From Peronospora farinosa (taxonomy: Eukaryota; Oomycota; Peronosporomycetes; Peronosporales; Peronosporaceae), in NCBI GenBank assembly GCA_947646735.1, contig CANTFK010000180.1, positions 1 to 64,000 of the forward strand: DNA of 64,000 nt, read 5' to 3'. Below the pieces are notes generated by a model, which saw only the letters and a program-made list of their open reading frames with translations, searched no databases and had not been told where the DNA came from. This document shows positions 1 to 37,207 of this stretch, in pieces. Position 1 is the stretch's first letter. Every line of letters starts with the position of its first letter. The translations under genes were made by a program, and so were the position numbers.

Positions 1-577
1 CGGGCAGCACGTTCACTGGCAGCCTCAGCCTCCAGCTGAGCATCGGCAGCTATGTTCACGGCCTGATCAACATCGTCCTGAGCAACCAGGACGCCAGCAC
101 TACCATCGCGAGGGCCCTCCTCCGCTTGTTGACGCGGAGGGACAGGTGCGCTGGATTGTAGACCGCATTGTGGGTCACGAGGACCCTCCACAACCAGTAC
201 TGCAGTCGGCTCATGAGAAGCGCGCGGTTCCATCCGTGCGCAGGTACCGAGTACGTTGGCTTGGATTCCCTCCCGAGCAGGATACATGGGAACCACGTTC
301 CTCACTCCTTCGTGACGTTCCAGATGTGGTTCTGTCGTATGAAGCCACGAAGTCGGGCTATTCCAATGCGGGCGAGCACGCGAACGCTCTCGTGACAAAC
401 GAGAGCGGTAAGGAGATCCACGTCGTCGAGAACGAGAACGATGACGCGAACGAGAACGATGTCGTGAACGAGAACGATGCCGTGAACGAGAACGTCGTGG
501 TGAATACATTATCACGATTGCGAGGCGAGAATCGCGCAGCAGGACGGGCAGGCGAACGTGTCGCTGCCCTGCGCTGA
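1..577 (+). pseudogene. pol: pol C-terminus with chromodomain (A family, partial)
   Basis: This is the C-terminal end of a Ty3/gypsy polyprotein. The frame is open from about 146 to the stop at 577. It encodes a chromodomain with the aromatic and acidic residues usual for the fold ([12 protein letters not shown], then [18 protein letters not shown]). Chromodomains at integrase C-termini are thought to steer integration to modified histones. A degenerate run of repeats encoding an N-E-N-D pattern follows the domain (about 425-510). The same DNA is read on the other strand by an antisense ORF. The start is outside the window and the copy is not expected to be functional. Confidence 0.8.
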
Positions 578-1245
578 TGATTCCGCGGAGATTGACTCCG
601 CTGTCGCGAGTGGTGCTGCCAGCGAGGCGCACCACGAATAACTGCGCTTCTCCGTTCGCTCAGACTTCGCTCATACTTTGCAATCCAACTTCGTTCGCGA
701 TCACTGAGTGGACACTCAGCGATGTGTCGTCGCCATTCGTCATGAGTTGGGCGTGGAGTCGAGTCACAAGATTGGCATCCTTCATTGACATGGACGAAGC
801 AGAGGCGGTCCTCATTCCAAGCATCCTCACACACTCTTTCGCGTAGCGCGCCGATGGAGTGATCGGCGCGAAGCTCCTCTCGATTGGCGAGCCATAATTG
901 GAAGCTGCTACCATCCTCGAGCATCCGATTCCAACGTTGGATGAAGGCACACCAAGAACGTTGTAGAGCTTCATGCTCGATTCCATCAAGACCTTTCCCG
1001 CGCAGTTTTCGAAATCGGCGGAAGTAGTCCCGCATCGTGTCCAGTGAGTCCGGAGCGTGAGCTCCGGACAAGTCGTACAGTGACCAAGGTATGAGCTGCC
1101 GCGCCATGATGCTGGTTGTTGCACTCCCGCTGATGTTTCTTGGGAGTGCTGCTGGATTGGGTGTTGGGTCTCCGGACATTGCTTGTTCGTTTGTGAGCGA
1201 CGGGTTTTCGACAGTTGAGCACTCACGGTTGGTGAGTGCTGTCAT
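358..1245 (-). CDS. antisense ORF protein, A family (shortened copy)
   Basis: This 295-codon ORF starts with ATG 13 bp inside the 3' LTR and runs antisense to the chromodomain end of pol. It is the counterpart of the 481-residue ORF at 9,310-10,755. The two agree without an internal indel for roughly the first 235 residues, including the segment with the LCxxxxxxxxCxxC pattern. They diverge by a frameshift where the intact copy enters its Arg/Ser repeat, so this copy loses the RS repeat and coiled coil. Function is unknown. I treat it as a real but C-terminally damaged member of an element-encoded protein family. Confidence 0.55.
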   Translation of the reverse strand: MTALTNRECSTVENPSLTNEQAMSGDPTPNPAALPRNISGSATTSIMARQLIPWSLYDLSGAHAPDSLDTMRDYFRRFRKLRGKGLDGIEHEALQRSWCAFIQRWNRMLEDGSSFQLWLANREELRADHSIGALRERVCEDAWNEDRLCFVHVNEGCQSCDSTPRPTHDEWRRHIAECPLSDRERSWIAKYERSLSERRSAVIRGAPRWQHHSRQRSQSPRNHQRRAATRSPARPAARFSPRNRDNVFTTTFSFTASFSFTTSFSFASSFSFSTTWISLPLSFVTRAFACSPALE

Positions 1246-3552: not shown

Positions 3553-3611
3553 ACTTGGTCGCAGATCTCCCTCCTCCTCCTCCTTCCATCTCTACTCCCT
3601 CCTCTTATACA

Positions 3612-4742
3612 ATGGCCGACGAAGACGTTCAAGCTTTGGTCGTAGACAACGGCTCCGGTATGTGTAAAGCCGGTTTTGCCGGTGATGACGCTCCCCGTGC
3701 CGTGTTCCCATCCATCGTAGGCCGTCCCAAACATTTGGGTATCATGGTCGGCATGGACCAGAAAGACGCTTACGTCGGTGACGAAGCTCAGTCAAAACGT
3801 GGTGTTTTGACGTTGAAATATCCCATTGAACACGGTATTGTGACGAACTGGGACGACATGGAAAAGATTTGGCACCACACTTTTTACAATGAGCTTCGTG
3901 TGGCTCCGGAAGAACACCCGGTCTTGTTGACGGAAGCTCCCCTCAACCCTAAAGCAAATCGGGAACGTATGACACAAATTATGTTTGAGACCTTTAATGT
4001 CCCGGCCATGTATGTAAACATCCAAGCTGTCCTGTCGTTGTACGCATCGGGTCGTACCACGGGTTGTGTGCTGGATTCCGGTGATGGTGTGTCCCACACT
4101 GTACCCATTTACGAAGGGTACGCGTTACCCCATGCCATTGTGCGTCTGGATCTCGCAGGTCGTGATTTGACCGATTACATGATGAAGATTTTGACGGAAC
4201 GTGGGTATTCGTTTACTACGACAGCCGAACGAGAAATTGTGCGTGATATTAAGGAGAAACTTACGTACATTGCATTGGATTTTGATCAAGAAATGAAGAC
4301 TGCTGCTGAATCATCGGGACTCGAAAAGAGTTACGAATTGCCAGATGGTAACGTCATTGTCATTGGCAATGAACGTTTCCGTACCCCTGAGGTGCTGTTC
4401 CAACCGTCACTTATTGGAAAAGAAGCATCAGGTATTCATGACTGCACATTCCAGACCATCATGAAGTGTGACGTTGATATCCGTAAGGATTTGTACTGCA
4501 ACATTGTCCTGTCGGGTGGTACCACAATGTACCCTGGTGTTGGTGAACGGATGACGAAGGAACTTACGGCTCTTGCTCCGTCTACGATGAAGATCAAGGT
4601 GGTTGCCCCTCCTGAACGCAAGTACTCGGTGTGGATTGGTGGTTCCATCTTGTCGTCGTTATCGACATTCCAGCAGATGTGGATCTCGAAGGCCGAGTAC
4701 GATGAATCGGGCCCGTCGATCGTGCACCGCAAGTGTTTTTAA
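3612..4742 (+). CDS. actA: actin
   Basis: This encodes a full-length 376-residue conventional actin, the filament-forming cytoskeletal ATPase. Family signatures are complete: [19 protein letters not shown] at the N-terminus (phosphate-binding loop 1), the [10 protein letters not shown] block, [12 protein letters not shown] (phosphate loop 2), and the C-terminus [11 protein letters not shown]. The length equals that of typical actins and there is no intron, as is usual for oomycete actins. I chose the ATG giving MADEDVQ because it yields the conserved acidic N-terminus; the frame is open further upstream but only with non-ATG codons. An oomycete initiator sits about 75 bp upstream. Some substitutions are unusual for an actin (for example [11 protein letters not shown]), compatible with a divergent oomycete paralogue. 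Confidence 0.97.
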
Positions 4743-5257: not shown

Positions 5258-5867
5258 TGTAACAGGGTACCTAGTTACACGTAAACATTAAGTAATATAC
5301 TTAATGTTTGGTCTAAAAGTATCCATGATTACTTTTGACCAGTCACTTGGGTGCGACACACAAATGTGATCCACCCTCGTGAATGTAATATCCATTGATG
5401 GATTCACATAAGAAGGGACGACGCTAGTTGAAGCTAGGCATCACGACGTCTCAGAAGGACGTCAGTTGCGATCTTAAATCTAGATTTAAGATCATGCGAC
5501 AGGATACGCTTCTAAAGAGTCGCGTATCCGATCTATAAATATATAATATATATATATAGCCAATCAGTAGTTAAACATATATTTAGTTATAATTAATTAA
5601 ATATATCTCAGTCTTGAATTTACTTAAACAAACACACCACGCACGAGAAGTTGAGAAACTTCTGCGTGACGTCGGTGTTGTAAGCGTTAAGAAGTTCGTT
5701 GCACTCTCGCTAAAGCGAGAGGCAACTGGTGGTACGACTGCTTAAGCAGTCGACCAACCTCCCAACCACCCTCGCACGCGAAGGTAAGACGGTCTAACCG
5801 CTTCCTCGCTTGTGCATAAGGTGTGTGCTCGTAGTACGAGGCAACTTCGTAGAAGTGCCCGTCTACA
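5258..5867 (+). repeat. B 5' LTR
   Basis: This 610-bp LTR ends CTACA and is followed by CT and the primer site TGGTAGCA. It differs from the 3' LTR by about six substitutions plus a length change in a TA dinucleotide run (about 5,540-5,560), roughly 1% by eye. Confidence 0.95.
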
Positions 5868-7099: not shown

Positions 7100-8954
7100 A
7101 GGTCGGACCTCAACCCTTTTGGTCTATAGCGCTTGAGTACGAGGCTATGACCAAGTGATGACCCTTCTCGTGGATTCGGGTGCATCACAAAACTTTGTGA
7201 AACTCGCGGCTCTAATAAGAGACCGGCGAGTTATGAGTCGCTTTGCCAGGATGGCAAGCGAGAAGAGGCGATCGTTCGTTTAGCGAACGGCGCGCTCGTC
7301 AAATCGAAGGGAGTTCAAGTTGAACTCGCCTTCAGTTTCAGTGACTTCTCTTGTAAAGAGAAGTTCACAGTGCTAAGTATGGAGAGTCCATATGAACTCA
7401 TCCTAGGCATGCCTTGGTTGGCTAAACACCAACCATGGATAGACTGGCGTACACGCACAGTCGCTAGCTCTACGCAAGACACCGGAAAGGATGTGCTCTT
7501 GCGAGAGGCTTATGTGACTGATGCTGTGTCCAACACAGTCGAGGGTGCGATGACGGTATGTCAATCGACACCAGGAACTACCCAGCTCGAAAGGAGTGGT
7601 GTAGTTGTGAGTGCACTGGCGGAAAGCCAGGTGACACATATTCCTACCCAGGTCGAAAAGACTGGTGTAGTGAATGGGGCGATGACAGGTAGTCATGCGT
7701 CCAATAGTCCTGCACAGAGCCAAGAGCCTGTGGCAGTTGATGGTGGGCTGACAGCAAGTCAAGCGCCACAAGAACCGGCACAGAGCCAAGAGCCTGGTGC
7801 GGTTGGAAGGAGTGCGTTAGCTGAGATAGCAACGACACCTTCTTCCAGGTCAAAGGTCGTGGTTACTCGAAGAACGAGCACCAGACGTATTAAGACGATC
7901 AAGGGCACGTCGAAACGAGTGACCCTTGGATCAGTCTCGGTCCAAGAGGACGGACCTACGAACGAGTTGTTCGAGGCCGTCTAAGACAAAATGCCGGAGG
8001 CATCCTCAGTTGAGGTGCTCCAACTTGTCTTGGCATCTTCCGAGGAGATAGTAAATCTCTCGGAGATGACGTGGGATCTGTTCCTGTCCGAACTAAAGGA
8101 AGGAAAGATCCACGAGATATTCGCACCAGTTCCAGAAGAGAACGTGGTGGACTGTTGCTCTTCATCCACGATGGATGAGAGCGTCTTGGAGACCGACAAA
8201 AAGAAACGGTTCGCTGCTCAAGGCTGGGATGCCTTGAAGGACAGCCCGTTCTATGATGTTCTGTGGAAACACCGTGATGTGTTTCCAGCAGAAGTGCCGA
8301 GCCGCCTACCGTCCGATAGGGGCATTAGTCACGAGATTGACCTGGAGCCTGGCACCAAGTATTGTGTGGCCAGGCAATGGCCGTTGCCGAAGGAACAAGT
8401 CGATTACATCGATGAGTTCTTCGACTAGATAACTAAGTCGGTACATGTACGTGAGAGCAAGTCGCCTCACTGCAGCCCGACCTTCTGTGTGCGTAAAGCA
8501 ACAGGAGGATGGAGCATGGTTCATGCTTATAATAAGCTGAACACGGCCACCATTCCGGCTCAGACGACGATCCCGCGGAAAGATGTTTTGTTGAATTCCA
8601 TGGGAAAGTCGACTATCTTTTCCGCGTTGGATCTGAAGGATGGCTAGTATCAGATTCTCATGAGAGATACCGATGTAGCCAAAACGGCAGTAAGCACCCC
8701 AAGCGGTATGCTGTGGGAGTGGCTTGTGATACCACAAGGGTTGAAAAATGCTCCGTCAACATTCAACCGAGTAGTGGCTCACGTGATGCGTCAGCACCGT
8801 GCCTACGCGCCCCATTACTTTGACGATGTATTCGTGCATAGTAGTGCGGAGGGCGGTCTGAGCGCGATAGAGTCGCACAAGCGTCATTTGGACGCTGTGT
8901 TGCAGACTCTGGGTGACGCCCAATTATACGTGAACTTGCAAAAGTGCGTAATAG
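7100..8954 (+). pseudogene. pol: protease and RT N-terminal half of element B (broken, interrupted by A)
   Basis: This is the first part of the B polyprotein. An aspartic protease motif (LLVDSGASQNFV) is encoded near 7,160-7,200, followed by the IL-GMPWL block near 7,405. A low-complexity linker with repeats such as SQEP runs from about 7,520 to 7,860. RT begins around 8,260 (HEIDLEPGTKYCVARQWPL) and reaches YFDD near 8,818 and NLQKC near 8,940. Stops or shifts occur at about 7,135, 7,982, 8,426 and 8,645. At 8,954 the coding sequence is interrupted by element A and resumes in the same frame at 16,777 once one target-duplication copy is discounted. Confidence 0.9.
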
Positions 8955-9296
8955 TGTAACGGGGCTAGAACGTACCGTCACTAGCTTACACGTGCGCTTG
9001 AGGAAGACTCAAGCCCAAGTATTAGGTATTAAGTAAATTTAACTCTGATTTTTATTTTGGTTTTAATTCGTACTAATTACGAAGATTTTAGTCGTAATAA
9101 ATACGACAGTGTTCCCGCCTTTCGGGAACCACACAATTTCAGGTTGATTTATCATTGGTCCATATTGGGGACTTTAGGCCCAATAATGAACCAATAATAA
9201 ATTACCACGCTGTGCCCGCTATTCGGGCCCAGCACCTGCCTACATATGTAATTGTTTATTTGTGTTAATGCTATATGTGTAATGTAGCCCATTACA
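8955..9296 (-). repeat. A 3' LTR
   Basis: On the plus strand this 342-bp LTR starts TGTAACGGGG and ends CATTACA. It differs from the other A LTR by about nine substitutions and two small indels, concentrated in the last 40 bp. Confidence 0.95.
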
Positions 9297-9309
9297 TCAC
9301 CCCCTTCTC

Positions 9310-10755
9310 ATGACAGCACTCACCAACCGTGAGTGCTCAACTGTCGAAAACCCTTTGCTTACAAACGAACAAGCAATGTCTGGAGACCCAACACCCAATC
9401 CAGCAGGACGCCCAAGATACATCAGCGGGAATGCATCCACCAGCATCATGGCGCGGCAGCTCATACCTTGGTCGCTGTACGACTTGTCCGGAGCTCACGC
9501 TCCGGACTCACTGGACATGATGCGGGAATACTTCCGCCGATTTCGAAAACTGCGCGGGAAAGGTCTTGATGGAATCGAGCATGAAGCTCTACAACGTTCT
9601 TGGTGCGCCTTCATCCAACGTTGGAATCGGATGCTCGAGGATGGTAGCAACTTCCAGTTATGGCTCACCAATCGAGAGGAACTTCGCGCCGATCACTCCA
9701 TCGGCGCGCTACGCGAAAGAGTGTGTGAGGAAGCTTGGAATGAGGACCGTCTCTGCTTCGTCCACGTCAATGAAGGATGCCGATCTTGTGACTCGACTCC
9801 ACGCCCAACTCATGACGAATGGCGACGACACATCGCTGAGTGTCCACTCAGCGATCGCGAACGAAGTTGGATTGCAAAGTATGAGCGAAGTCTGGGCGAA
9901 CGGAGAAGCGCAGTTATTCGTGGTGCGCCTCGCTGGCAGCACCACTCGCGACAGCGGAGTCAATCTCCGCGGGATCATCAGCGCAGGGCAGCGACACGTT
10001 CGCTTGTCCGTCCTGCTTCGCGATTCTCGCCTCGCAATCGTGATGTGTATTCACCGCGACGTTCTCGTTCACGGCGTCGTTCTCGTTCGCGATATCGTTC
10101 TCGTTCCGGTCATCGTTCCCGTTCCCGACAACGTGAATCTCCTTACCGCTCTCGTTTGTCACGAGAGCGTTCGCGTGCTCGCCCGCCTTGGAATAGTCCG
10201 ACTTCGTGGCTTCATACGACAGAACCACATCTGGAACGTCACGAAGGAGCGAGGAACGTGGTTCCCATGTATCCTGCTCGGGAGGGAATCCAAGCCAACG
10301 TACTCGGTACCTACGCACGGATGGAACCGCACGCTTCTCATGAGCCGACTGCAGTAATGGTTGTGGAGGGTCCTCGTGACCCACAATGCGGTCTACAATC
10401 CAGCGCACCTGTCCCTCCGCATCAACAAGCGGAGGAGGGCCCTCGCGGTGGTAGAGCTGGCGTCCTGGTTGCTCAGGACGATGTTGATCAGGCCGTGAAT
10501 ATAGCTGCCGATGCTCGGCTGGAGGCTGAGGCTGCCAGTGAACGTGCTGCCCAGGCGGAGAAGACTTCGAGTGAGACCCGACAGTCGAACCGTGAACTGC
10601 TCGAGCGGATAAGGATTCTGGAGCGCCAGATGCTTGGTCAGGTTCAGACGGGATCGAGACCCCGCCCCATGTCATCGGCGCGTCGAGCGCGACGGGAAGG
10701 CCGTTCGACTTACGAACCCCTGAAGCCGGCGTCGGAGCCAAACCGTGAAGCGTAG
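9310..10755 (+). CDS. antisense ORF protein of element A (RS repeat, coiled coil)
   Basis: This intact 481-residue ORF lies on the strand opposite gag-pol. Its ATG lies 13 bp inside the 3' LTR, so any transcript would start in that LTR or close to it. The last 842 bp overlap the chromodomain end of pol in antisense. Visible parts are: a Trp- and Leu-containing segment (residues about 50-130); a Cys pattern LCxxxxxxxxCxxC (about 147-160); an Arg/Ser dipeptide repeat (about 240-285); a predicted coiled coil (about 388-442); and a basic C-terminus. Elements B and C carry ORFs in the identical position, and the C protein shares the Cys-containing segment. I recognise no known family. RS-rich and coiled-coil parts suggest RNA binding and oligomerisation, which is inference only. 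Confidence 0.72.
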   Translation: MTALTNRECSTVENPLLTNEQAMSGDPTPNPAGRPRYISGNASTSIMARQLIPWSLYDLSGAHAPDSLDMMREYFRRFRKLRGKGLDGIEHEALQRSWCAFIQRWNRMLEDGSNFQLWLTNREELRADHSIGALRERVCEEAWNEDRLCFVHVNEGCRSCDSTPRPTHDEWRRHIAECPLSDRERSWIAKYERSLGERRSAVIRGAPRWQHHSRQRSQSPRDHQRRAATRSLVRPASRFSPRNRDVYSPRRSRSRRRSRSRYRSRSGHRSRSRQRESPYRSRLSRERSRARPPWNSPTSWLHTTEPHLERHEGARNVVPMYPAREGIQANVLGTYARMEPHASHEPTAVMVVEGPRDPQCGLQSSAPVPPHQQAEEGPRGGRAGVLVAQDDVDQAVNIAADARLEAEAASERAAQAEKTSSETRQSNRELLERIRILERQMLGQVQTGSRPRPMSSARRARREGRSTYEPLKPASEPNREA

Positions 10756-11263
10756 CCGGACGATATTCCTTCAGCCGCCCGACATAGAATGTCGGGTGGA
10801 GTCGCAGTGAAGAGGGGACGTCGAGTGTATAGGCGTCGCCAATTGCCTTCAGAACCTTGAATGGACCGATGAAGCGTGGCGCGAGTTTGCTCGCGCCCAG
10901 ATTAGTGACCGCAGAATCCCTTAAACCTTCCGTCGATAATAATACACGGTCACCTTTCTCAAACTTGCTCATGTTCTTTCGTCCATGTTTGTCAGCATTC
11001 TCCTTCTGTAGGTCTACAGCAGTTTGTAGTGCGTCGCGTACAAACCTGGTGATGGCTTGACGTTGGAGTATAAATTCCGACACGGCCATGTCATCAATTG
11101 GTCGCGCCGACTCAATCGGCGCGTAGTTGGCGGTAGGGGAACGCTTACCCGAAGACGGGTCAATCAATGTCTGCGCAGTCCATCGAGCTAATGGAGACGC
11201 CACGTCTGATGGCGTCAAAATGGCCGTCTTTGCCTTGGATCGTGTTACTGCATTCGCGCTCAA
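9914..11263 (-). CDS. pol: pol C-terminal part: integrase tail and chromodomain (element A)
   Basis: This is the continuation of the A polyprotein after a frame break at about 11,305-11,311, where the plus strand has seven C in a row. It encodes the integrase C-terminal region ([13 protein letters not shown], then FIGPFKVL and a [12 protein letters not shown] block), a variable Pro/Ser-rich spacer, and a chromodomain ([13 protein letters not shown] ... [15 protein letters not shown]). An acidic Asn/Glu/Asp repeat follows the chromodomain. Its first open codon is not an ATG, so it is expected only as part of the polyprotein. The homologous B region is in one frame through this point, so the break is probably a simple homopolymer indel. 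Confidence 0.85.
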
Positions 11264-14200: not shown

Positions 14201-15312
14201 GGGAGTACCCCAAACTCGACCGTCGACACTTGATGCGGGAGCTCCTGCTCGGCCGCCATAAACCCGCGTGGGAGCCCCTGCTCAACCACAGTATGCCCAT
14301 GTGGGAACCTCGGTTCGACCACAGTGGGTGATGATGGGAACCCCGGTTCGACCATCATGCTCTCGCGTGGGGACTCCTGTCCGTCCACGTCGTACTCGTG
14401 TGGGAGCCCCTGCTCGACCACAATATGCCCATGTGGGAACCTCGGTTCGACCACAGTGGGTGATGATGGGAACCCCGGTTCGACCATCATGCTCTCGCGT
14501 GAGGACTCCTGTCCGTCCACGTCACACTCGCTGGCGAGCTCTTGCTCGTCGCCACAATGCCCTTGTGGGAGCCCCTGCTCGACCACAATAGGTGCAGATG
14601 GGAACCCCGGTTCAACCACTGCATTCACGTGCGGGAACCCCTGTTCAACCGCATTAATGACGCGCGGGAACCCCTGCTCGACCGCGTCGTCCTCGTTGTC
14701 CTCTTCGCTCTGTAGCGAGGAGTCACTGTCACTTGTGTCCCGAAGAACAGCACAAGCAGTGCAGAGAGGGCCATCGCTCGCTCTGTGCACCGCCAACGTC
14801 GTGGAATCGCGATCCACGACTGTGACGTTTGGCCAGTCACTTGGAGATACCAAGAGATGGGTAAACACTTCACTGACATCGAACTTGCGTCGACGTCTCA
14901 CTGATCTGGCTAACCAGTCGATCTGGGGCTTATAACGTGCCAACCATGGCATGCCCAGTATGCAATCGAATGCATAATTCATCGCGATCACCAAGAAATC
15001 ATCATTACTACGAAAGCCATCAAACGTATACGGCAACGACACTTCGCGCCGCGATACGCGGTGTGGTTTCCCGTCAGCCAACTTGACGACGACTTGGCCA
15101 GGTCCCTCACGGACCTGAATGCTGGGAGGCAGCATCGATAAACAAGATTCACGAAAGAAATTGTTTGTTGCTCCTGAGTCCAGGAGTGCTCGCAGAGGTC
15201 GCCGGACGCCGGCGACATGTAAACTGACAATAATCAGACGTGAATCACCACTCGTAGTGGTGGCATTTAACCGTGCGCGTAGCGCAGGAGGACTGGAAGG
15301 TTGGGCTGCCAC
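11260..15312 (-). CDS. pol: Pol polyprotein: protease, RT, RNase H, integrase (element A)
   Basis: This is a 1,350-codon open frame. In order it shows: an aspartic protease ([14 protein letters not shown], about residue 40) with a GMPWLARY block; a linker made of about a dozen VVE(P/Q)G(F/L)P repeats (about 195-375); reverse transcriptase ([16 protein letters not shown], catalytic YFDD near plus-strand 13,185); RNase H ([33 protein letters not shown]); and integrase with an HHCC zinc site ([10 protein letters not shown] ... CEICQR) and the D,D,E triad ([26 protein letters not shown]). The first in-frame start-like codon is GTG, but the frame is open back into gag, so translation by -1 frameshift at 15,372-15,378 is likely. 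The frame closes prematurely in the integrase C-terminal region. Confidence 0.95.
14270..14705 (-). repeat. tandem coding repeats in the protease-RT linker
   Basis: Short units encoding [20 protein letters not shown] and variants occur about a dozen times. Higher-order units of about 135 bp are duplicated almost perfectly (about 14,285-14,420 and 14,420-14,555). The linkers of elements B and C also contain short tandem repeats, but with different sequences. Confidence 0.85.
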
Positions 15313-16406: not shown

Positions 16407-16432
16407 AGGAAGGACTACAAAGTGCTACCAGG

Positions 16433-16771
16433 TGTAACGGGGCTAGAACGTACCGTCACTAGCTTACACGCGCGCTTGAGGAAGACTCAAGCCCAAGTAT
16501 TAGGTATTAAGTAAATTTAACTCTGATTTTATATTTTGGTTTTAATTCGTACTAATTACGAAGATTTTAGTCGTAATAAATACGACAGTGTTCCCGCCTT
16601 TCGGGAACCACACAATTTCAGGTTGATTTATCATTGGTCCATATTGGGGACTTTAGGCCCAATAATAAACCAATGATAAATTACTACGCTGTGCCCGCTA
16701 TTCGGGCCCAGCACCTGCCTACATATGTAATTGTTTATTCATATTAATACTATGTAATGTAGCCCATTACA
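16433..16771 (-). repeat. A 5' LTR
   Basis: This 339-bp LTR, read on the minus strand, begins TGTAATGGGC and ends CCGTTACA. It is flanked by AATAG at 16,772-16,776 and followed inside the element by the primer site. Confidence 0.95.
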
Positions 16772-18320
16772 AATAGGGGTCCCCGAGATACCTGTACTGG
16801 GCTGCATCGTAGGTGCACATGGTGTACGAGCAGACCCAGAAAAGGTAAAGGCTGTAAAGGAATGGCCAGTCCCACGTCATGTGAAGGATCTGCGCCAATT
16901 CCTTGGGCTCGCTAATTACTTGCATAAGTACAGCAAGAATTATGTGGAGCAGACCAAGCCGTTGTCTGACCTTTTGAAAAAGGATACAGAATGGACTTGG
17001 TCAAAGGAACAAGAAGATGCGTTCACTTCAGTGAAGCAATCTCTTGTTGAGGCACCGGTCTTGGCATTGCCAGATAAGCCCTTTAGCGTCGTCTGCGATG
17101 CAAGCAATTTTGCAATCGGCAGCGCGCTCATGCAGAAGAATGACAACGGCGTTCACCGCGTCATTTCTTATCAGTCTCGGCTTTTAAAAGCTGCCGAGCT
17201 GAATTATCCTGTGCATGACAAGGAGCTACTTTCAATTAAGTATGCCCTTGTGAAGTTTCGGGTGCACCTCTTGGGCACCGAACCTTTTGTGGTTTATACG
17301 GATCACGCATCACTGCGGACCGCTATAAATTCACCGCACCTCTCGCCGAGAATGGCAAGATGGCTAACATTCTTCTCTGAATTTAATTTCAAAGTTGAAT
17401 ATAAGCCGGGTAAGTCGAATGTCTTGGCTGACGCGTTATCGCGCAGACCAGACTTCGAGGCAAGACACCAGGATAGTGTGTCTCGTGCGAAAGCACAAGT
17501 TGAGTCGTCAACATTGGCAGCCATGAAGGCCTACCATGTGACGAGCTCAATGGCCTCCGATATAAAAGAGTGTTACAGTCAGGACGAACATTGTCGCCTG
17601 CTGTTGGATCATTTTGGTGGACGAAAGGTTACCCTTCCGTCGCACCTCAAAGCGAAGTTAAATCGCTTTAGTTACAGTGATGGCCTGTTATGGCATCAAC
17701 TGTCATCCTGTGATCCCTTGAGAATCTATGTCCCTCATGACACAGATCTCAAGCTAATGATACTTCACGAGCTCCATTATGCGCCATCTAGTGGGCATCT
17801 GGGCCGTGAAAAGACATTCTTACGAGTGTCAGAGGAATTTTGGTGGCCCCACCTATATCGGTGGGTGGCCAACTATATTCGCTCTTGTGAAGAGTGTCAG
17901 CGCATAAAGCCTGCACCTTCAAACAGTGCGCCACTGAAGCAACTGCCGATTCCAACTGAATGTTGGAATTCGGTCAGTTTGGACTTCATGTTTGGCTTAC
18001 CGCCTGACCATAAAGGCAGGACAGTGCTCGTCGTCTTTGTAGACAGACTGAGCAAGATGGTGCATTTGGCACCATGTAGCACCAAGATCTCAGGAACAGA
18101 GGCTGCCTTCTTGTTTCTAGATCAAGTTTATCGACTACACGGGATGCCCGAGTCCATAGTATCGGACCGGGATCAGCGTATACGTCGGGTTTTTGGCGAC
18201 ATGTGTTTGAGCTGCTGGGTAGCAAGCTCCACATGTCAACCGCTGATCATCCCCAGACCGATGGCCAAACAGAACGGGCCAATCGAGTCGTGGCGGATGT
18301 GTTGCGTACAATAGCGACTC
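16772..18320 (+). pseudogene. pol: RT C-terminus, RNase H and integrase core of element B (continued)
   Basis: The B polyprotein resumes after the A insertion. It encodes the end of RT (PVLGCIV ... [17 protein letters not shown]), RNase H with its acidic residues ([31 protein letters not shown]), the integrase zinc site ([11 protein letters not shown] ... CEECQR) and the first two catalytic aspartates (SLDFMFGL, SDRDQR). A frame change near 18,175-18,205 moves the reading into the next segment. The residues at the join are degraded (the usual DPRF block is altered). The domain order is that of other chromoviruses. Confidence 0.92.
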
Positions 18321-19639
18321 CTAAAGAATGGAGCAAGCAATTGCCATTCGTGGAGTTTGCTATTAATAACAGTGTTCACGCCAGTACGGGTGAAACACCG
18401 TTTTACATTAACGGACTGCGTCATCCTCGAACGCCAGTCTCGTTTGTACGCAGCCCGAGTCTTAGTGGGGGAGGGCCCCTCACTTCGCTCGGTGCGAATG
18501 CCAAAGAGGGCCAAGGTTGCCCTAGTGACACTGCTAATTTAGCAGTGGTCACGACACCTATAGGTGTCACAAAGGAGGCACGGCAAGAAATGCCAGTGCT
18601 CCTTGATGATGACACTATAGTGTTGTCAACAGCGTCGACCCATGAACGACCTCTTAGAGGCGTCATAGGCGAGCTGGATACGAAAAGCGTGAGCGAAGCT
18701 CAGCGCTTTGTGGATGATCGATTAGCCATCACACGTAAAGTCCGTGACGCGATGGCAAGCGCACAGGACAAGCAAAAACAATATGCAGACCAGCATGGTC
18801 GCAAAAACAATGAACACTTTAGTGTGGGGGACAAAGTGCTATTAAGTACTGCTACCCTACCTAAACATGCAATTTCTGTATTACCTGGTGGTACTACTAA
18901 GCTATTGCCCCGATTCATTGGGCCCTTTACAGTGGTTGAAGAAGTTGGAGACCTAAATTATAGGTTCACTCTCCCACCGTATATGAAGACGCACCCCGTA
19001 TTTTACGTGGGTCGTCTGAAACGGTATGTTGATCCAGAAGAGATCACATATCCGCATCAGTCTAACGAGACCGATGGTGACGCCGACTGTGAGTCGAGCG
19101 TCGCGACCGATCAGGCGACGAGGAAGCCGAGAGGCTCCCCGTGTATGAACGAGGCGATAGAGGACTCGGTGATCGAGGAGGACTCCGCGCTTGACGCGGG
19201 TCTCTCATCACCAGTCGCTCTAAGATGTCCAAACGGGTCTTCAGGCGGTCATACCCCTGACGGTCCCTCGTCCTCACATCGCGCAGATCCAAAGTCAGTC
19301 GCGAGACTTGACTCTCGAGATCTGACACCTGTCTCTTCAGCGCAGCAGACTCAGCCTGCGACTGAACAACAGCAGGGTAGACAGCCGCGATTAGGTGGGC
19401 GTAATCGCCACTCCTATCGGGCGCCACCTGTGTTGGTGGACACGGATGGGAACACGCGCTTCCTTGTTGGAAGGCTGTTGGCCCACCGGTTTGTGAAGCG
19501 AAAGCTCCAAATTCTTGTCCAATGGAAGGGTTACCCAACGAGCTTTGACTCGTGGGAGCCTGTGGACGCTTTGCGCGTTGACGTGCCTGGGCTGGTGGCT
19601 GCTTATGTGAAGCAGCACCAGCTGTCTTCTTTCTGCTAG
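18203..19639 (+). pseudogene. pol: integrase C-terminus and chromodomain of element B
   Basis: The frame carries the third catalytic residue of integrase (DGQTERANR), the NNSVHASTGETPF block, the integrase C-terminal region (SVGDKVLLSTATLP, HPVFYVGRLKRY), a Ser-rich spacer and a chromodomain (TRFLVGRLLAHRFV ... LVQWKGYPTSFDSWEP). Unlike element A it is open in a single frame from the integrase core to the end. The last 578 bp (from 19,062) are overlapped on the minus strand by the B antisense ORF. Confidence 0.9.
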
Positions 19640-20507
19640 GTCCGGAAGGACTAGCAGAAGAAGCGTGGCGAGAATTAATTGGGAGTCGCTTACCGCCCAT
19701 AATTTCATGTGCACGCTTCATGGCGAAGCTGATTCGCTGCGACCGCTGTTTCGTTGCATCTTCATGCAAGGTAACACGGCGCCGAAGTTCAGCTTCGTAG
19801 TCGTCGGCTGTTTCGTTAGAATGCAGCACGACTGGAATTGGGAAAGCACGACCAAGTGCTTTGCCCTGCTTTTTACACAAGGGATAAACGCTATAAAACT
19901 TATGAGTGTCTATAGTGGCACGCTGCAAAAGCGATGCGCTAGACCCATCTGAGTGCATCCACTCAGATGGAGGTGGCATTGGTGGCAAGCCACCACTCAC
20001 GTAGCCGCCCTCGCGACGGCGGGTTAGTGAGGCCGAAGGTGTACTTGGTGGAGCTTTAAGCTCACACTCAGCTGAGTCTGACTCTCCATTATGGATTGTC
20101 AAGACATCAGCTTGAGGAGTTACATCTGACAGAGTCGCGACTACTCCTTTCGAAGTAGCGTGCTCAGTCTTAGTCGCTGCGCTCGTAGGCGCAGACGACG
20201 AGGCATTACCTTCGCTTGCAGGAAGCATAGACGCTTCCTCAAGTATGGGTGCATCAAATGATGGGGACATATGTCCCATCAATGCACTATGCTCATCGCC
20301 ACTTTGGGGTGATGGCAGTGGTGTGGTCTCATTGTAGTCAACAATGAGAGATGGATCTTCATCCACATTATCGTGAGATGGAAGATCCACCCCAGTGCCT
20401 GACGCACTTTGCGACGGCTGCGATAAATCGCGGCGCGTGCGCTTAGTGCTGGACTGCATGGGTGCCTTTGCAGGCGACCCATCAGCCTTACCACGTTTCG
20501 GTGGCAT
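19062..20507 (-). CDS. antisense ORF protein of element B
   Basis: This is a 481-residue open frame opposite to gag-pol, starting with MPPKRGKADG about 107 bp inside the 3' LTR. The frame is open further, and an alternative ATG at 20,645 lies within the LTR itself. It has a basic N-terminus, an acidic motif VDEDPSLIVDY shared with element C (VDPELVVDY), a FPIP motif also shared with C, a Ser/Pro-rich middle, a coiled coil (about 372-420) and an Arg/Ser-rich tail. It overlaps the chromodomain end of pol by 578 bp. It has stayed open although gag and pol of the same copy are broken several times. The function is unknown. Confidence 0.65.
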   Translation of the reverse strand: MPPKRGKADGSPAKAPMQSSTKRTRRDLSQPSQSASGTGVDLPSHDNVDEDPSLIVDYNETTPLPSPQSGDEHSALMGHMSPSFDAPILEEASMLPASEGNASSSAPTSAATKTEHATSKGVVATLSDVTPQADVLTIHNGESDSAECELKAPPSTPSASLTRRREGGYVSGGLPPMPPPSEWMHSDGSSASLLQRATIDTHKFYSVYPLCKKQGKALGRAFPIPVVLHSNETADDYEAELRRRVTLHEDATKQRSQRISFAMKRAHEIMGGKRLPINSRHASSASPSGPSRKKTAGAASHKQPPAQARQRAKRPQAPTSQSSLGNPSIGQEFGAFASQTGGPTAFQQGSACSHPCPPTQVAPDRSGDYAHLIAAVYPAVVQSQAESAALKRQVSDLESQVSRLTLDLRDVRTRDRQGYDRLKTRLDILERLVMRDPRQARSPPRSPSPLSPRSYTGSLSASSSPDRSRRSTHSRRHHRSR

Positions 20508-20614: not shown

Positions 20615-21217
20615 TGTAACAGGGTACCCAGTTACACGTAAACATTAAGTAATATACTTAATGTTTGGTCTAAAAGTATCCATGATTACTTTTGACCAGT
20701 CACTTGGGTGCGATACACAAATGTGATCCACCCTCGTGAATGTGATATCCATTGATGGATTCACATAAGAAAGGACGACGCTAGTTGAAGCTAGGCATCA
20801 CGACGTCTCAGAAGGACGTCAGTTGCGATCTTAAATCTAGATTTAAGATCATGCGATAGGATACGCTTCTAAAGAGTCGCGTATCCGATCTATATATATA
20901 TATATATAGCCAATCAGTAGTTAAACATATATTTAGTTATAATTAATTAAATATATCTCAGTCTTGAATTTACTTAAACAAACACACCACGCACGAGAAG
21001 TTGAGAAACTTCTGCGTGACGTCGGTGTTGTAAGCGTTAAGAAGTTCGTTGCACTCTCGCTAAAGCGAGAGGCAACTGGTGGTACGACTGCTTAAGCAGT
21101 CGACCAACCTCCCAACCACCCTCGCACGCGAAGGTAAGACGGTCTAACCGCTTCCTCGCTTGTGCATAAAGTGTGTGCTCGTAGTACGAGGCAACTTCGT
21201 AGAAGTGCCCGTCTACA
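20615..21217 (+). repeat. B 3' LTR
   Basis: This 603-bp LTR starts TGTAACAGGG and ends GTCTACA, followed by the right copy of the GAGTA target duplication (21,218-21,222). Confidence 0.95.
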
Positions 21218-22713: not shown

Positions 22714-24828
22714 CTACTCGCCAAGTTCCATCTTAATGTCGCTGTCACGGAAAAGTGACGTGCGCCGAGAGCCAATGATATCGCTGCCCATATAACTAAA
22801 GTCATCGAAGTGCATCGCCGTGATGCCAGATCCGGTAGATGAGCTCAGCACACTCACCACAGGCGAATCCGCTACGTCCTGCTGTTTAAAGACATTCGGT
22901 ACATACTGCAAGTTAGCAATGAGCGCAGCGCTGCTAGTACGTGCACGGCTGCCTTGCGAGTCTTTTGACACCGGCTTGAAAGGTGGCTCCATTCGGCGTT
23001 CAAGAAGTGCTTCCCAATCGACACCCTTGAACCACAAGTGCCCCATAATCTCCAGCGCGCCGTCAGCTCCACAACCCATCCGCTGCTGTGGATTCTTAAC
23101 CAATAATCGCTGCAGAAAATCGGTAGCCGTGGGCGAGAAGTGCTCAGGAGGATACAACGGATCCTTGCTTAGAATGTTCTGGAACATTTGACGGCGATTT
23201 TTGTCCCAGAACGGTGTATGTCCTTGAATCATCTCGTATACAAGTACACCGTAGCTCCACCAGTCGACCGTATTGCCGTATGATGTGGATGTCCGCTGGC
23301 TGCAAAGCAACTCTGGCGCCAAGTACTCGGGGGTACCGACAAACGTAGATCCTTCATCATCTTCCTTAGACAGGCCAAAATCTGTGATGGCAATATGCCC
23401 TTCGCTGTCCACGAGAATGTTTTCCAGTTTGAGATCACGGTACATGATGTGCATGCTGTGTAAATGCGCCAACGACAGCACCAGCTCTGCCGCGTAAAAG
23501 CAAGCCCGTTGCTCTGAAAAGCGCTTTTCCTTCCGCAGATGCACGAATAGCGATCCGCCAGAGTAATAGTCCATCACTAGATACAGCTTCTGGTGGTTCT
23601 GAAAAGCATACCGCAGCCGCACCACGAACGGATGCTCCACATGCTTAAGAATGCGCTGTTCCGACTTTGTGTGTTCAACCTGCTTTTTCTTAAAAACGTC
23701 TTGCTTGCGCAGCACTTTCATTGCATACACACGACCAGCATTTTTACCTTGCTTCTTCTTTGCCAGAAACACTTTACCGTAAGCGCCTTTTCCAACCACC
23801 GACAACAAGTCAAAGTCGTTCACGCTCATGGAAGTTGAGATGACCATGCTGCGTCTTGAGCTGCGCGCACTACTGGTACGACGTTCCAGATGGTTCCCTG
23901 ATTTCGTTTCGTCTTCATCATGAAACTCTGCGTCATCCAAATGCTCCTGTTGATGCGGCGCCGACAACAAGGCAGCCGCGCCGGCATATGCATACTGCGA
24001 CAACCGACTCATTTCATCCATGAGTTCATCTTCCGCGGGTTCGTTCGGCATCGAGCCTCGTGCACTGTCAAAAAACGCAAACACGGTGTCCATACTCGCC
24101 GCAATAGTCCAGGCTGTGTTCGAAGATTTTTGTTCAGCTGGTGACGTTGGTTCTCCCGCCGAGAGACTCAAACATCCCAGTTGTGTGCAATCCTGTAGCT
24201 GCGTTCCAGTAATTTCCTTCGATCTTTGCCAGTTAATCGCCCTCGTCTCTAACAATCCTCTTACTTCCTGTGTATCATCCGTTTCAATCCGATGACTCGA
24301 CTCCATAAATGCAATTGCCGCAAGCTTCGATCTCAGCAATGGTTGTGTGCACACCAAATGTTTCGTCAATGATCCTCCACGTCCGTAAGCAGCAATGTAC
24401 ACTTGCGAGCAAGAAGTTCGAACTCCATACGTCTCCCACACATGACGAACGTGCACCTCTGGTGTACTCGAGAATGGAATTGAAATCTTCTCGTTTCCGT
24501 TAGTGACCGTATTAGTGCTTGGATTCATAACGATAACACCGTAGCCCTTGGACAATGCTGTATGTAGATACGGGAGCATCGAGCCCGATCTATATTGATT
24601 AGGATTTTCTGCGGCCTCCAGGACAAGCGAGCGGCTCCAAATACCCGGTTGAATTCCGTTACCACTCACAATTACGAGCAATAAACGACGGCAAATGTGC
24701 CAGTTCGCACTCATAAAGATGCTGCAGCGCGTAGGGCTGTCCGAGGACGGGATACACGTCTCTACAAAACCCAATTGGATCATTTTTTGCTGCTCCTCAA
24801 GCACAATTTGGTGAAGTCGCGTCTCCAT
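22714..24828 (-). CDS. AGC-family Ser/Thr protein kinase
   Basis: This is a 704-residue protein with an N-terminal region of about 330 residues that I do not recognise and a C-terminal AGC kinase domain. Kinase residues: glycine loop GKGAYGKV (346-353), ATP-binding Lys 371, catalytic YRDLKLEN (Asp 465), DFG (483-485), and the activation segment STFVGTPEYLAPE with Thr 495 as the expected PDK1 site. Behind the domain lies a hydrophobic motif FDDFSY (674-679, Ser 678), typical of kinases regulated by PDK1 and TORC2/TOR. The overall pattern is closest to S6K/Akt/SGK-type kinases, but without a PH domain. The start is the first ATG in frame (METRLHQ). A pyrimidine-rich TCATTCT initiator-like site lies 40-60 bp upstream. 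Confidence 0.92.
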   Translation of the reverse strand: METRLHQIVLEEQQKMIQLGFVETCIPSSDSPTRCSIFMSANWHICRRLLLVIVSGNGIQPGIWSRSLVLEAAENPNQYRSGSMLPYLHTALSKGYGVIVMNPSTNTVTNGNEKISIPFSSTPEVHVRHVWETYGVRTSCSQVYIAAYGRGGSLTKHLVCTQPLLRSKLAAIAFMESSHRIETDDTQEVRGLLETRAINWQRSKEITGTQLQDCTQLGCLSLSAGEPTSPAEQKSSNTAWTIAASMDTVFAFFDSARGSMPNEPAEDELMDEMSRLSQYAYAGAAALLSAPHQQEHLDDAEFHDEDETKSGNHLERRTSSARSSRRSMVISTSMSVNDFDLLSVVGKGAYGKVFLAKKKQGKNAGRVYAMKVLRKQDVFKKKQVEHTKSEQRILKHVEHPFVVRLRYAFQNHQKLYLVMDYYSGGSLFVHLRKEKRFSEQRACFYAAELVLSLAHLHSMHIMYRDLKLENILVDSEGHIAITDFGLSKEDDEGSTFVGTPEYLAPELLCSQRTSTSYGNTVDWWSYGVLVYEMIQGHTPFWDKNRRQMFQNILSKDPLYPPEHFSPTATDFLQRLLVKNPQQRMGCGADGALEIMGHLWFKGVDWEALLERRMEPPFKPVSKDSQGSRARTSSAALIANLQYVPNVFKQQDVADSPVVSVLSSSTGSGITAMHFDDFSYMGSDIIGSRRTSLFRDSDIKMELGE

Positions 24829-24865
24829 TTTGCCACGATTGTCGTCCCTCGTGTGCTGTAGCAAG

Positions 24866-29034: not shown

Positions 29035-29493
29035 TGTAACGGGGCACCCTCCGACTATACTGATTACAGTATAGTCTACTTTCACTGATTACAGTGAAAG
29101 CAGGTGCCTCAATTACCTCTCTTACACAAGAGGCAGAGGAAGCTTTACTTCTAAATAAAGGCTTAGAAGTAGAGGAAAAGAAAAACTGTAAATAATATTG
29201 TTAACTATCTTAATAAACTAATCTGTTATAACCTATGTTAACTATATTAAACTACAACTATGTATGTCGACAACTTGCCCTCCACTCATTGCGCGCGTCC
29301 ATCGGTCATTGGTCAGCGCGTTGGTTGATATGATGGCCCATATCAACCAATAAGAGGGCATCTCCAACTTCAAGGAGATCTAGGAACAATATTATAAGAA
29401 AAGGTAATATTGTCAAAATATTATAAGTTATAATAATATTTTATTGACACTTCATATAAGTGTCAATATTATGTAACGCGCTCACCCCTTACA
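29035..29493 (-). repeat. C 3' LTR
   Basis: This 459-bp LTR reads TGTAACGGGGCA...CCCTTACA on the plus strand. It shares its terminal TGTAACGGGG with the A LTR, but the interior is unrelated. Confidence 0.95.
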
Positions 29494-29535: not shown

Positions 29536-31308
29536 ATGACTATGGGAAAGAAAAATTTGTTGAATTTTCTTTCATTCAACAATTACGCTATGACAAAGTC
29601 AATGCGCGTCGCTGCTAAGGCAGCCAAGAGCTCGGCTGCACGCCTGTGTGCAGCCGCTACTGAGGCTTCACAGCCTCAGCAAGCAGACACTAATGTGTCT
29701 GCTGGAAGTCAACATCAGCCTGCAACGCCTGTTGCAGGTTCACGTAGCGCTTCGCCACGTGAAGATGTTGACCCAGAGTTAGTCGTCGACTACTCTGGTG
29801 AGTCGGATCACGCATCCGGCTCAAAGTCACCTATTCCACTCCCGGGCTCTCCCCGGGGTGATACCTCGTCGTCTAATGCTACGAAGAGGGATCGTGGTAC
29901 ATTGAGTGAATCAATGTACCGTGAAATGTTCGGGTCGTCTGATGAATCAGACGACTCGCCAAACGAGTCGAAGGATAGTGACTCGGGTAGGGTCGGTAAG
30001 GGTGATGTCAGTGCTTCTACTGACATCAATGCACGTTGTGTCGGTACTTCTGTTGACACTAATGCTCGTGGTGTCGGTACTTCTGTTGACACCACGCAGG
30101 AGGCTTTAGACCGCAACGTATTGCGTCTTGCTCCTGATCGCAAGCCATGGATGCTACCTAAGCATCTGCTTGATCGTTGGTCTGGAAAGACCAACGAACG
30201 GTTTCCCATACCGTTGTTTGATGCGTCAAAGCTTCATGGCCTTGACGCCAGTGCGAAGAACTTTCGCACTGAGAACGATTATTACATCGATGTAGTCCTT
30301 GAACATCGATGGTATGGCCCACACAAGAAGCGTGAGGCCGACGCGTTCCTCCAATCTTGGAACGCGTTTATCGCCAACGTTTTAAACGTTGGGAAAGAGG
30401 CTTGGTTTCAAAGACTTTTTGCTAGCCGCAAGAAGTTTGAGAAACGAAGTACTTCCGGTGCATGCTATCGTTTGCACTGGTTATCTAGAGAGGCAGGCCT
30501 GTTATGCCTCTCTTGGAGCGACCCATGCCCGGGGTGCCTGAGCACCTCATCAAGAGCACCTAATGAGGCGTACCTCCTTACTGAGCCCTGGTGGAGGGCT
30601 CGCATCTCTTCTGAGATGCGTGAAGGGATTGCTACTTTGCAATCCCTTTACGAACGCGCTGGGCACTCGTTTTCCGATGGTCCTTCACCATCGGGTGCCC
30701 CTTGTCTTACTGTTCGACAAAGCCGGGAACATCGGCCATTAGTTGGGCCCGAGGTTCCCAGCTATCCGCCGAAGGCGGATAGCCACGCCACCGGACGAGA
30801 TAACTCGTCCGACGTCCCTTCACATCGCGGTGCTTTAGTAAGCGTTCCACGAGGAAGCGCTTCCCACCATGGAAGTCCACCAGCGGATGCGGTGGTGGAG
30901 GGAAAACCCTGTCCGATTCTTTCATCGGACTTGGCTGCTGAGTTAGACGGGTTTACCCGTGTAACTCGTGAGCTCCGTTGTGATGTTGATCACGAACGGG
31001 ATAAGCGTCGCCGCTTAGAGGACATTGTGCGACAGCTTGGGTTTGACCATGAGAGGTCTCGGGCGAACAATGCTGTCGCACTATTGGAGAATGAGCGGCG
31101 ACTTCATTCTCTGAGTAATGAGCTGGAGACAGCTCGTCAGAAGATCGTCCAATATCATGGGAAGATCTCATCTCTACACGACCAGATATCGAATCTGGTT
31201 CGTGACAACAAGAATCTGAAGGGGATTCTTGAGAGTAATGGCTATGTTCGTCGTTCGAAGAAGCCGCGTACTGAACGTACGGACGAAGACGTCCCACGTA
31301 AAACGTAG
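29536..31308 (+). CDS. antisense ORF protein of element C
   Basis: This intact 590-residue ORF lies opposite to gag-pol, with its ATG 42 bp inside the 3' LTR. It overlaps both the chromodomain and the spacer before it. Features in order: an Ala/Ser-rich start; an acidic motif VDPELVVDY (shared with B); a Ser/Asp-rich stretch; RFPIPLF (shared with B); a segment with SWNAFI and LLCLSWSDPCPGC (about 321-334) resembling the SWCAFI and LCFVHVNEGCRSC segment of the A protein; and a long C-terminal coiled coil (about 464-575) ending in basic residues. The frame has no stop although pol on the other strand has one inside the overlap. Function unknown. Confidence 0.72.
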   Translation: MTMGKKNLLNFLSFNNYAMTKSMRVAAKAAKSSAARLCAAATEASQPQQADTNVSAGSQHQPATPVAGSRSASPREDVDPELVVDYSGESDHASGSKSPIPLPGSPRGDTSSSNATKRDRGTLSESMYREMFGSSDESDDSPNESKDSDSGRVGKGDVSASTDINARCVGTSVDTNARGVGTSVDTTQEALDRNVLRLAPDRKPWMLPKHLLDRWSGKTNERFPIPLFDASKLHGLDASAKNFRTENDYYIDVVLEHRWYGPHKKREADAFLQSWNAFIANVLNVGKEAWFQRLFASRKKFEKRSTSGACYRLHWLSREAGLLCLSWSDPCPGCLSTSSRAPNEAYLLTEPWWRARISSEMREGIATLQSLYERAGHSFSDGPSPSGAPCLTVRQSREHRPLVGPEVPSYPPKADSHATGRDNSSDVPSHRGALVSVPRGSASHHGSPPADAVVEGKPCPILSSDLAAELDGFTRVTRELRCDVDHERDKRRRLEDIVRQLGFDHERSRANNAVALLENERRLHSLSNELETARQKIVQYHGKISSLHDQISNLVRDNKNLKGILESNGYVRRSKKPRTERTDEDVPRKT

Positions 31309-36747: not shown

Positions 36748-37207
36748 TGTAACGGGGCATCCTCCGACTATACTAATTACAGTATAGTCTACTTGCACTG
36801 ATTACAGTGAAAGCAGGTGCCTCAATTACCTCTCTTACACAAGAGGCAGAGGAAGCTTTACTTCTAAATAAAGGCTTAGAAGTAGAGGAAATGAAAAACT
36901 GTAAATAATATAGTTAACTATCTTAATAAACTAATCTGTTATAACCTATGTTAACTATATTAAACTACAACTATGTATGTCGACAACTTGCCCTCCACTC
37001 ATTGCGCGCGTCCATCGGTCATTGGTCAGCGCGTTGGTTGATATGATGGCCCATATCAACCAATAAGAGGGCATCTCCAACTTCAAGGAGATCTAGGAAC
37101 AATATTATAAGAAAAGGTAATATTGTCAAAATATTATTAGTTGTAATAATATTTTATTGACACTTCATATAAGTGTCAATATTATGTAACGAGCTCACCC
37201 CGTTACA
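36748..37207 (-). repeat. C 5' LTR
   Basis: This 460-bp partner of 29,035-29,493 is flanked outside by CGACC at 37,208-37,212 and inside by the primer site. Confidence 0.95.

Follow-up and report, generated by a model that had tools for sequence, protein, structure and literature searches.

Additional open reading frames (ORFs) in antisense orientation have been described at the pol-3' long terminal repeat (LTR) end of the plant Ty3/gypsy elements Grande (maize, gene23), RIRE2 (rice), Retand (Silene) and PvRetro13 and of the fungal element Boty, with their function given as unknown (PMC7264820). Antisense transcription has been shown for Grande and Retand, and the Retand antisense ORFs carry TRP28 (PMC11963269). 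HBZ of the retrovirus HTLV-1 is a nuclear bZIP protein encoded in antisense and driven by the 3' LTR (PMC10186651), and, of HBZ and the plant aORF-3R proteins taken together, several are reported to be nuclear (PMC10186651, PMC11963269, PMC7264820). From oomycetes, the chromodomain-bearing Gypsy elements named Chronos, with a dual RNase H, have been described (PMC5348765). In the open-licence literature, including the excerpts of PMC3522703 and PMC12477816, we found no report of antisense or additional ORFs in oomycete elements, and the words antisense and opposite are absent from the main text of the Chronos paper (PMC5348765). Here we analyzed a window of 64,000 nucleotides from the oomycete Peronospora farinosa (positions 1 to 64,000 of contig CANTFK010000180.1, assembly GCA_947646735.1, forward strand), in which three LTR retrotransposons, elements A, B, and C, each carry a long ORF antisense to the chromodomain end of pol. 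We are highly confident that this antisense frame is protein-coding and has been kept by selection while the elements multiplied. Antisense accessory genes of LTR retrotransposons, so far described from few lineages, are thereby extended to the oomycetes, and we know of no earlier antisense accessory gene overprinted on a chromodomain.

Element A lies on the minus strand between LTRs of 96% identity (8954-9296 and 16432-16771) and contains gag and pol; pol comprises protease, reverse transcriptase, RNase H, and integrase and bears an SH3-like module and a chromodomain at its end. Imperfect 33-bp direct repeats are found at 14237-14698, within its pol ORF. Element A sits nested within element B, whose LTRs are at 5258-5867 (5') and 20615-21217 (3'); the LTRs of element C are at 29035-29493 (3') and 36748-37207 (5'). 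A chromodomain at the pol C-terminus, one feature of chromoviruses, is present in all three, by domain match in A and B and by translation and similarity to A and B in C. The window copy of element C has two premature pol stops near the chromodomain stretch, and its natural pol end (~30632) was taken from other copies. The three elements resemble Chronos, likewise a Ty3/gypsy element of oomycetes whose pol ends in a chromodomain (PMC5348765), but in place of the dual RNase H a single RNase H region, matched by two overlapping models, is found in the pol of A (1350 amino acids, aa), the pol of C (812 aa), and the B fragment (477 aa).

The intact 481-codon ORF that a preliminary description of this DNA had reported opposite the pol end of element A was confirmed (9310-10755, plus strand, ATG to stop), and so were the antisense ORFs of B (481 codons) and C (590 codons) at the corresponding place. 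The start of ORF A had been put 13 bp inside the 3' LTR; the LTR ends at 9296, so the ATG lies 13 bp outside, internal to the LTR edge, and 9297-9309 is the pyrimidine complement of the polypurine tract. The ORF B frame extends upstream to an ATG at 20645, within the LTR (527 codons), and the true start of ORF C may be at 29590 or 29602, because several homologues begin at the equivalent residues. In a second A copy, codons 1-245 of the ORF are in one frame and codons 292-404 in another. Pol ends at 9914 (A), 19639 (B), and ~30632 (C), and the ORF length free of pol is ~604, ~868, and ~1096 bp, respectively; the remaining part of each ORF lies opposite the linker that follows the SH3-like module, the chromodomain, and the tail of pol. 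A, B, and C have one and the same phase against pol, with the pol wobble base at ORF codon position 2; this agreement is weak evidence because that phase has the fewest expected stops in all three. The three ORFs resemble those of the plant aORF-3R elements and Boty: they too belong to Ty3/gypsy elements, are antisense, stand at the pol-3' LTR end, and are preserved in numerous copies, and like aORF-3R they are conserved at the protein level. The published ORFs are described as lying between pol and the 3' LTR (PMC7264820), whereas in the oomycete ORFs the C-terminal two fifths to one half overlap the end of pol and, with it, the chromodomain. The preliminary description had named plant Tat-lineage elements as the precedent; this precedent exists and is wider, extending to the fungal Boty.

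Copies of the elements were gathered from the genome (46.9 Mb, 274 contigs). The A alignment had 60 rows (all 40 scored copies of 295 candidates and 20 further places chosen from 96 matches), the B alignment 23 (20 of 40 copies, 2 diverged places, and the window copy), and the C alignment 31 (30 of 40 copies, one of them the window copy, and 1 further place). In window A the antisense frame contains 0 stops in 201 codons between 9310 and 9912, and the five other frames contain 2 to 11; in the non-overlapping part of B and C, frames other than the antisense one are open in 0/23 and 0/31 rows. For variants found in at least two copies, w in the conserved domains was 0.47 (A, p = 0.006), 0.22 (B, p = 9e-5), and 0.40 (C, p = 0.006), and singleton variants were neutral (0.93, 0.97, and 0.97). 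Pooled over the three domains, the shared variants comprised 58 nonsynonymous and 61 synonymous changes versus 85.5 nonsynonymous expected (p = 1.1e-7; 60, 23, and 31 rows), and 3 stop variants were observed versus 7.2 expected; this test has no pair filter, and its mutation spectrum was derived from the same variants. The pairwise ratio of nonsynonymous to synonymous differences (pN/pS) was 0.30 (A), 0.39 (B), and 0.39 (C) in the conserved domains, 0.47, 0.50, and 0.66 over the whole non-overlapping part, and 0.57 in B codons 1-150. For A, pairs with synonymous divergence (dS) > 0.05 were kept for each frame separately, a filter that lowers the ratios; for B and C, pairs were chosen by total divergence > 0.03, and neither the pairs nor the homologues described below are independent of one another. 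Selection in the part free of pol, which the preliminary description had proposed to examine, is purifying in the conserved domains of A, B, and C.

Opposite pol, we used a recoding test in which the pol protein was fixed and codons were redrawn randomly from element usage. The share of draws without a stop in the antisense phase was 0.08% for A, 0.19% for B, and 0.13-0.27% for four copies of C; 5-6 stops are expected in the used phase, yet A, B, and these C copies have none there. Across copies, the overlap is stop-free in the antisense frame in 42/60 (A), 17/23 (B), and 22/31 (C) rows, and in the pol frame in 44/60, 19/23, and 19/31 rows. Pol of B and C had been called broken with the antisense frames open; this is true of the window copies only, and across copies the antisense frames are kept no better than pol. 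Per-copy net frameshift counts were set aside for C, where they resemble an artefact of the alignment end. The ratios in the overlap are 0.54 (antisense) and 0.87 (pol) for B, 0.79 and 0.71 for C, and 0.70 and 0.67 for A, where the unused frames give 0.70, 0.71, 1.05, and 1.17. A spurious ORF arising from pol codon use was rejected on the selection in the pol-free part together with the recoding test.

Three homologous-protein searches, each scoring the best 8000 candidates, reach relatives that share exact words, so absence elsewhere means little. They returned at least 24 homologues of the A protein (named: Phytophthora capsici, ramorum, rubi, fragariae, idaei, infestans, nicotianae, megakarya, and cactorum, and Peronospora matthiolae and destructor), at least 15 of the C protein (P. 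effusa, P. matthiolae, and Hyaloperonospora arabidopsidis), and at least 13 of the B protein (P. effusa and P. farinosa), together 52 database homologues, the named ones all from Peronosporaceae. The earlier proposal of element-encoded antisense proteins in three families is thus borne out by selection and by relatives in other species, and protein families so far hidden among the hypothetical proteins of Phytophthora and downy mildews can be named. Each homologue protein was then back-translated over all synonymous codons and the opposite strand scored with a 31-column chromodomain profile from the other two families, with 500 shuffles each. A chromodomain footprint above all 500 shuffles was obtained for 46 of the 52 homologues (21/24 A, 14/15 C, and 11/13 B), 43 of the 46 in phase 1 and three A gene models (P0016, P0019, and P0020) in phase 0. 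A homologues with a phase-1 footprint share 19-50% identity with window A there (one of them, P0003, is 31% identical and has a footprint score of 54.5 vs. 49.3 for window A itself), and because the identity is only this high, common antisense ancestry alone is insufficient for the footprint scores. The three phase-0 models are 9-12% identical to window A; as these Phytophthora models carry the footprint in another phase, the public annotation of the antisense genes probably includes frame-shifted or mis-spliced models. We conclude from these comparisons that the antisense-to-chromodomain arrangement appears to be common to Peronosporaceae elements, and the antisense gene probably encodes an old accessory protein.

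Several results weigh against this picture. Selection is uneven along the ORFs: codons 1-50 of A (w 1.11) and 1-185 of C (ratio 1.01) look unconstrained. For the 40 close A copies alone, w over the whole non-overlapping part is 0.65 for variants shared by at least two copies and 1.01 for those shared by at least four, and in the A domain the variants shared by at least eight copies give w 0.48 with p = 0.3. The mirrored opposite frame, in which the wobble position coincides, is similarly low (0.27, 0.43, and 0.54 in A, B, and C) and is excluded only because of its stops: with 3 stops in 200 codons in window A and an open frame in 0/23 B and 0/31 C rows, a sense-strand gene in the pol-LTR gap was rejected. 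In the A overlap, selection is unsupported by the ratio test because the antisense value equals those of two unused frames (0.70 and 0.71). Six of the 52 homologues (P0013, P0017, P0018, P0038, P0048, and P0052) have no footprint above all shuffles, P0017 and P0018 missing it by 1/500 each. No known domain or fold match that would point to a function was obtained for the antisense proteins, and the A, B, and C proteins show no significant mutual similarity (BLASTP E 0.033-0.12; hhalign with full and domain alignments and hidden Markov model searches not above shuffles, the alignments being small).

The profile comparison of the A, B, and C proteins, also proposed in advance, thus gave no homology above shuffles, despite pol identities of 61% (A vs. 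C) and 51% (B vs. C). This outcome, which the preliminary description had named among those that would refute it, weakens the reading of the three as one family and leaves the coding reading untouched. The previously noticed resemblances, an A-C segment with SWxAFI and C-x6-7-C-x2-C and a B-C motif DP-x-L-x-VDY, are visible in the proteins, but are statistically not significant. The latter, as DP-x-L-x-VDY-[NS], stands near the N-terminus of ORFs B and C (~20300 and ~29800) within an acidic Ser-rich stretch (BLASTP E 0.043). C-terminal heptads were matched by 0/300 shuffles in B, 0/300 in C, and 7/300 in A, and basic segments are present according to the charge table. It is conceivable, and we put it forward tentatively, that the strand opposite the chromodomain is a recurring cradle of accessory genes, in which mutually unrecognizable proteins alike in position, phase, and layout would have arisen by repeated recruitment or overprinting, or from one ancestral gene diverging far faster than pol under host conflict. 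Either way, the chromodomain of Peronosporaceae elements would then be dual-coding, with its sequence shaped by two proteins at once, and if both frames of the overlap are indeed coding, any account of how the chromodomain evolved in these elements has to allow for a second constraint.

As the best explanation of the whole we favor, by a modest degree, an accessory and probably nuclear regulator encoded in antisense from the 3' LTR end; for its nuclear regulatory part we regard the case as evenly balanced. Transcription of the ORF would be driven by an antisense promoter within or next to the 3' LTR, the protein would self-associate via the C-terminal coiled coil, its basic stretches would bring it into the nucleus, and the conserved helical N-terminal domain would bind a host or element factor. 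The protein would act in trans on the element, on transcription, on splicing or export of genomic RNA, or on copy number, in a mode resembling HTLV-1 HBZ or the plant aORF-3R proteins. This scheme is preferred because it best fits layout and precedent, all steps beyond coding and selection being inferred. HBZ, APH-2, and ASP are likewise proteins encoded in antisense from the 3' LTR side with a C-terminal coiled-coil-like region (PMC10186651). Unlike HBZ, the antisense proteins have no bZIP family among their Pfam matches (for C, 25 of 30 families), and the likeness is one of layout, no sequence relation being claimed. TRP28 of Retand (PF04195) is not among the Pfam matches at E <= 0.5 of 19 A members, 14 B members, and, among the same 25 of 30 families, 15 C members. 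Since many copies per genome and several species are at hand, the role of the antisense accessory proteins is directly testable.

The strongest rival to the regulator, to which we give roughly half the weight, is a real protein with a particle or pre-integration role, as a chaperone, packaging factor, or nuclear-import aid acting with Gag or integrase. The conserved helical domain, coiled coil, and basic tail would suit such a role as well, and import of the pre-integration complex is discussed by Vicient and Casacuberta as an option for aORF-3R proteins (PMC7264820). On the other hand, a gag- or envelope-like domain was not found among the Pfam matches of the antisense proteins (C: 25 of 30 families), and the coding strand would imply expression control apart from gag-pol. 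It seems improbable that the protein shields the element from host RNA silencing provoked by its own sense/antisense overlap: Dicer-dependent small RNAs from LTR elements are known in Phytophthora infestans (PMC3522703) and the A protein has a basic Arg/Ser-rich stretch, but this stretch is absent in that form from B and C, and the Pfam matches (C: 25 of 30 families) contain no suppressor-like domain. We consider it very improbable that the antisense RNA rather than a protein matters, or that neither has a role and pol codon use has merely left the frame open. Some retroviral antisense RNAs work without a protein (PMC10186651), and in Phytophthora infestans small RNAs map to Gypsy elements in both orientations (PMC3522703); against this, and already disfavoring it, the best-conserved part lies outside pol under protein-level selection, and the recoding test argues the same way. 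Capture of host genes carried as passengers, a transduction known for LTR elements (PMC7264820), is just as hard to sustain and was rejected, since the pol end stands opposite the ORF in 20/20 diverged A places fetched, 46/52 homologues keep the chromodomain footprint on the other strand, and no copy was found outside the element, though further matches were not checked singly.

Table 1. Coordinates of the antisense ORFs and the associated element features in the window.
Feature	Positions	Strand	Basis
Antisense ORF A, 481 codons, ATG to stop	9310..10755	+	ORF list; selection; homologues
Antisense ORF B, 481 codons from conserved Met at 20507	19062..20507	-	ORF list; selection; homologues
Antisense ORF C, 590 codons, start perhaps 29590 or 29602	29536..31308	+	ORF list; selection; homologues
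Second A copy: antisense ORF in frame over codons 1-245, then shifted	358..1245	-	translation and alignment
Conserved helical domain of ORF A (codons 51-201), free of pol	9460..9912	+	alignment; pN/pS 0.30; structure model of residues 41-207, pLDDT 79.9
Arg/Ser-rich stretch of ORF A (~residues 213-288)	9946..10173	+	translation; charge table
C-terminal heptad/alanine-zipper-like stretch of ORF A (residues 388-441)	10471..10632	+	below Pfam cut-off; marginal, 7/300 shuffles as good
Conserved domain of ORF B (codons 151-274), free of pol	19686..20057	-	alignment; pN/pS 0.39
Conserved domain of ORF C (codons 186-366), free of pol	30091..30633	+	alignment; pN/pS 0.39; weak model, pLDDT 62.2
Pol end of element A (SH3-like module, linker, chromodomain, tail)	9914..11263	-	translation and domain matches
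Chromodomain of element A, opposite ORF A	10211..10399	-	domain match, residues 289-351 of 9914-11263
Chromodomain of element B, opposite ORF B	19466..19612	+	domain match, residues 422-470 of 18203-19639
Chromodomain stretch of element C (approximate), opposite ORF C	30710..30859	-	translation
3' LTR of element A	8954..9296	-	LTR comparison
Polypurine tract of element A, between 3' LTR and antisense ATG	9297..9309	-	identified by sequence
3' LTR of element B	20615..21217	+	LTR comparison
3' LTR of element C	29035..29493	-	LTR comparison

Elsewhere in the window, a satellite-like array with a 144-bp unit occupies 51238-55985 and directly follows a fragment of A-like pol (49963-50979). At 51483-55677, long ORFs on the minus strand were rejected as genes, being translations of the satellite repeat. 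A Copia-type fragment with gag_pre-integrs and rve matches is located at 39883-40698, and two further ORFs, judged by eye from their translations, are actin-like (3555-4742) and protein-kinase-like (22714-24864).
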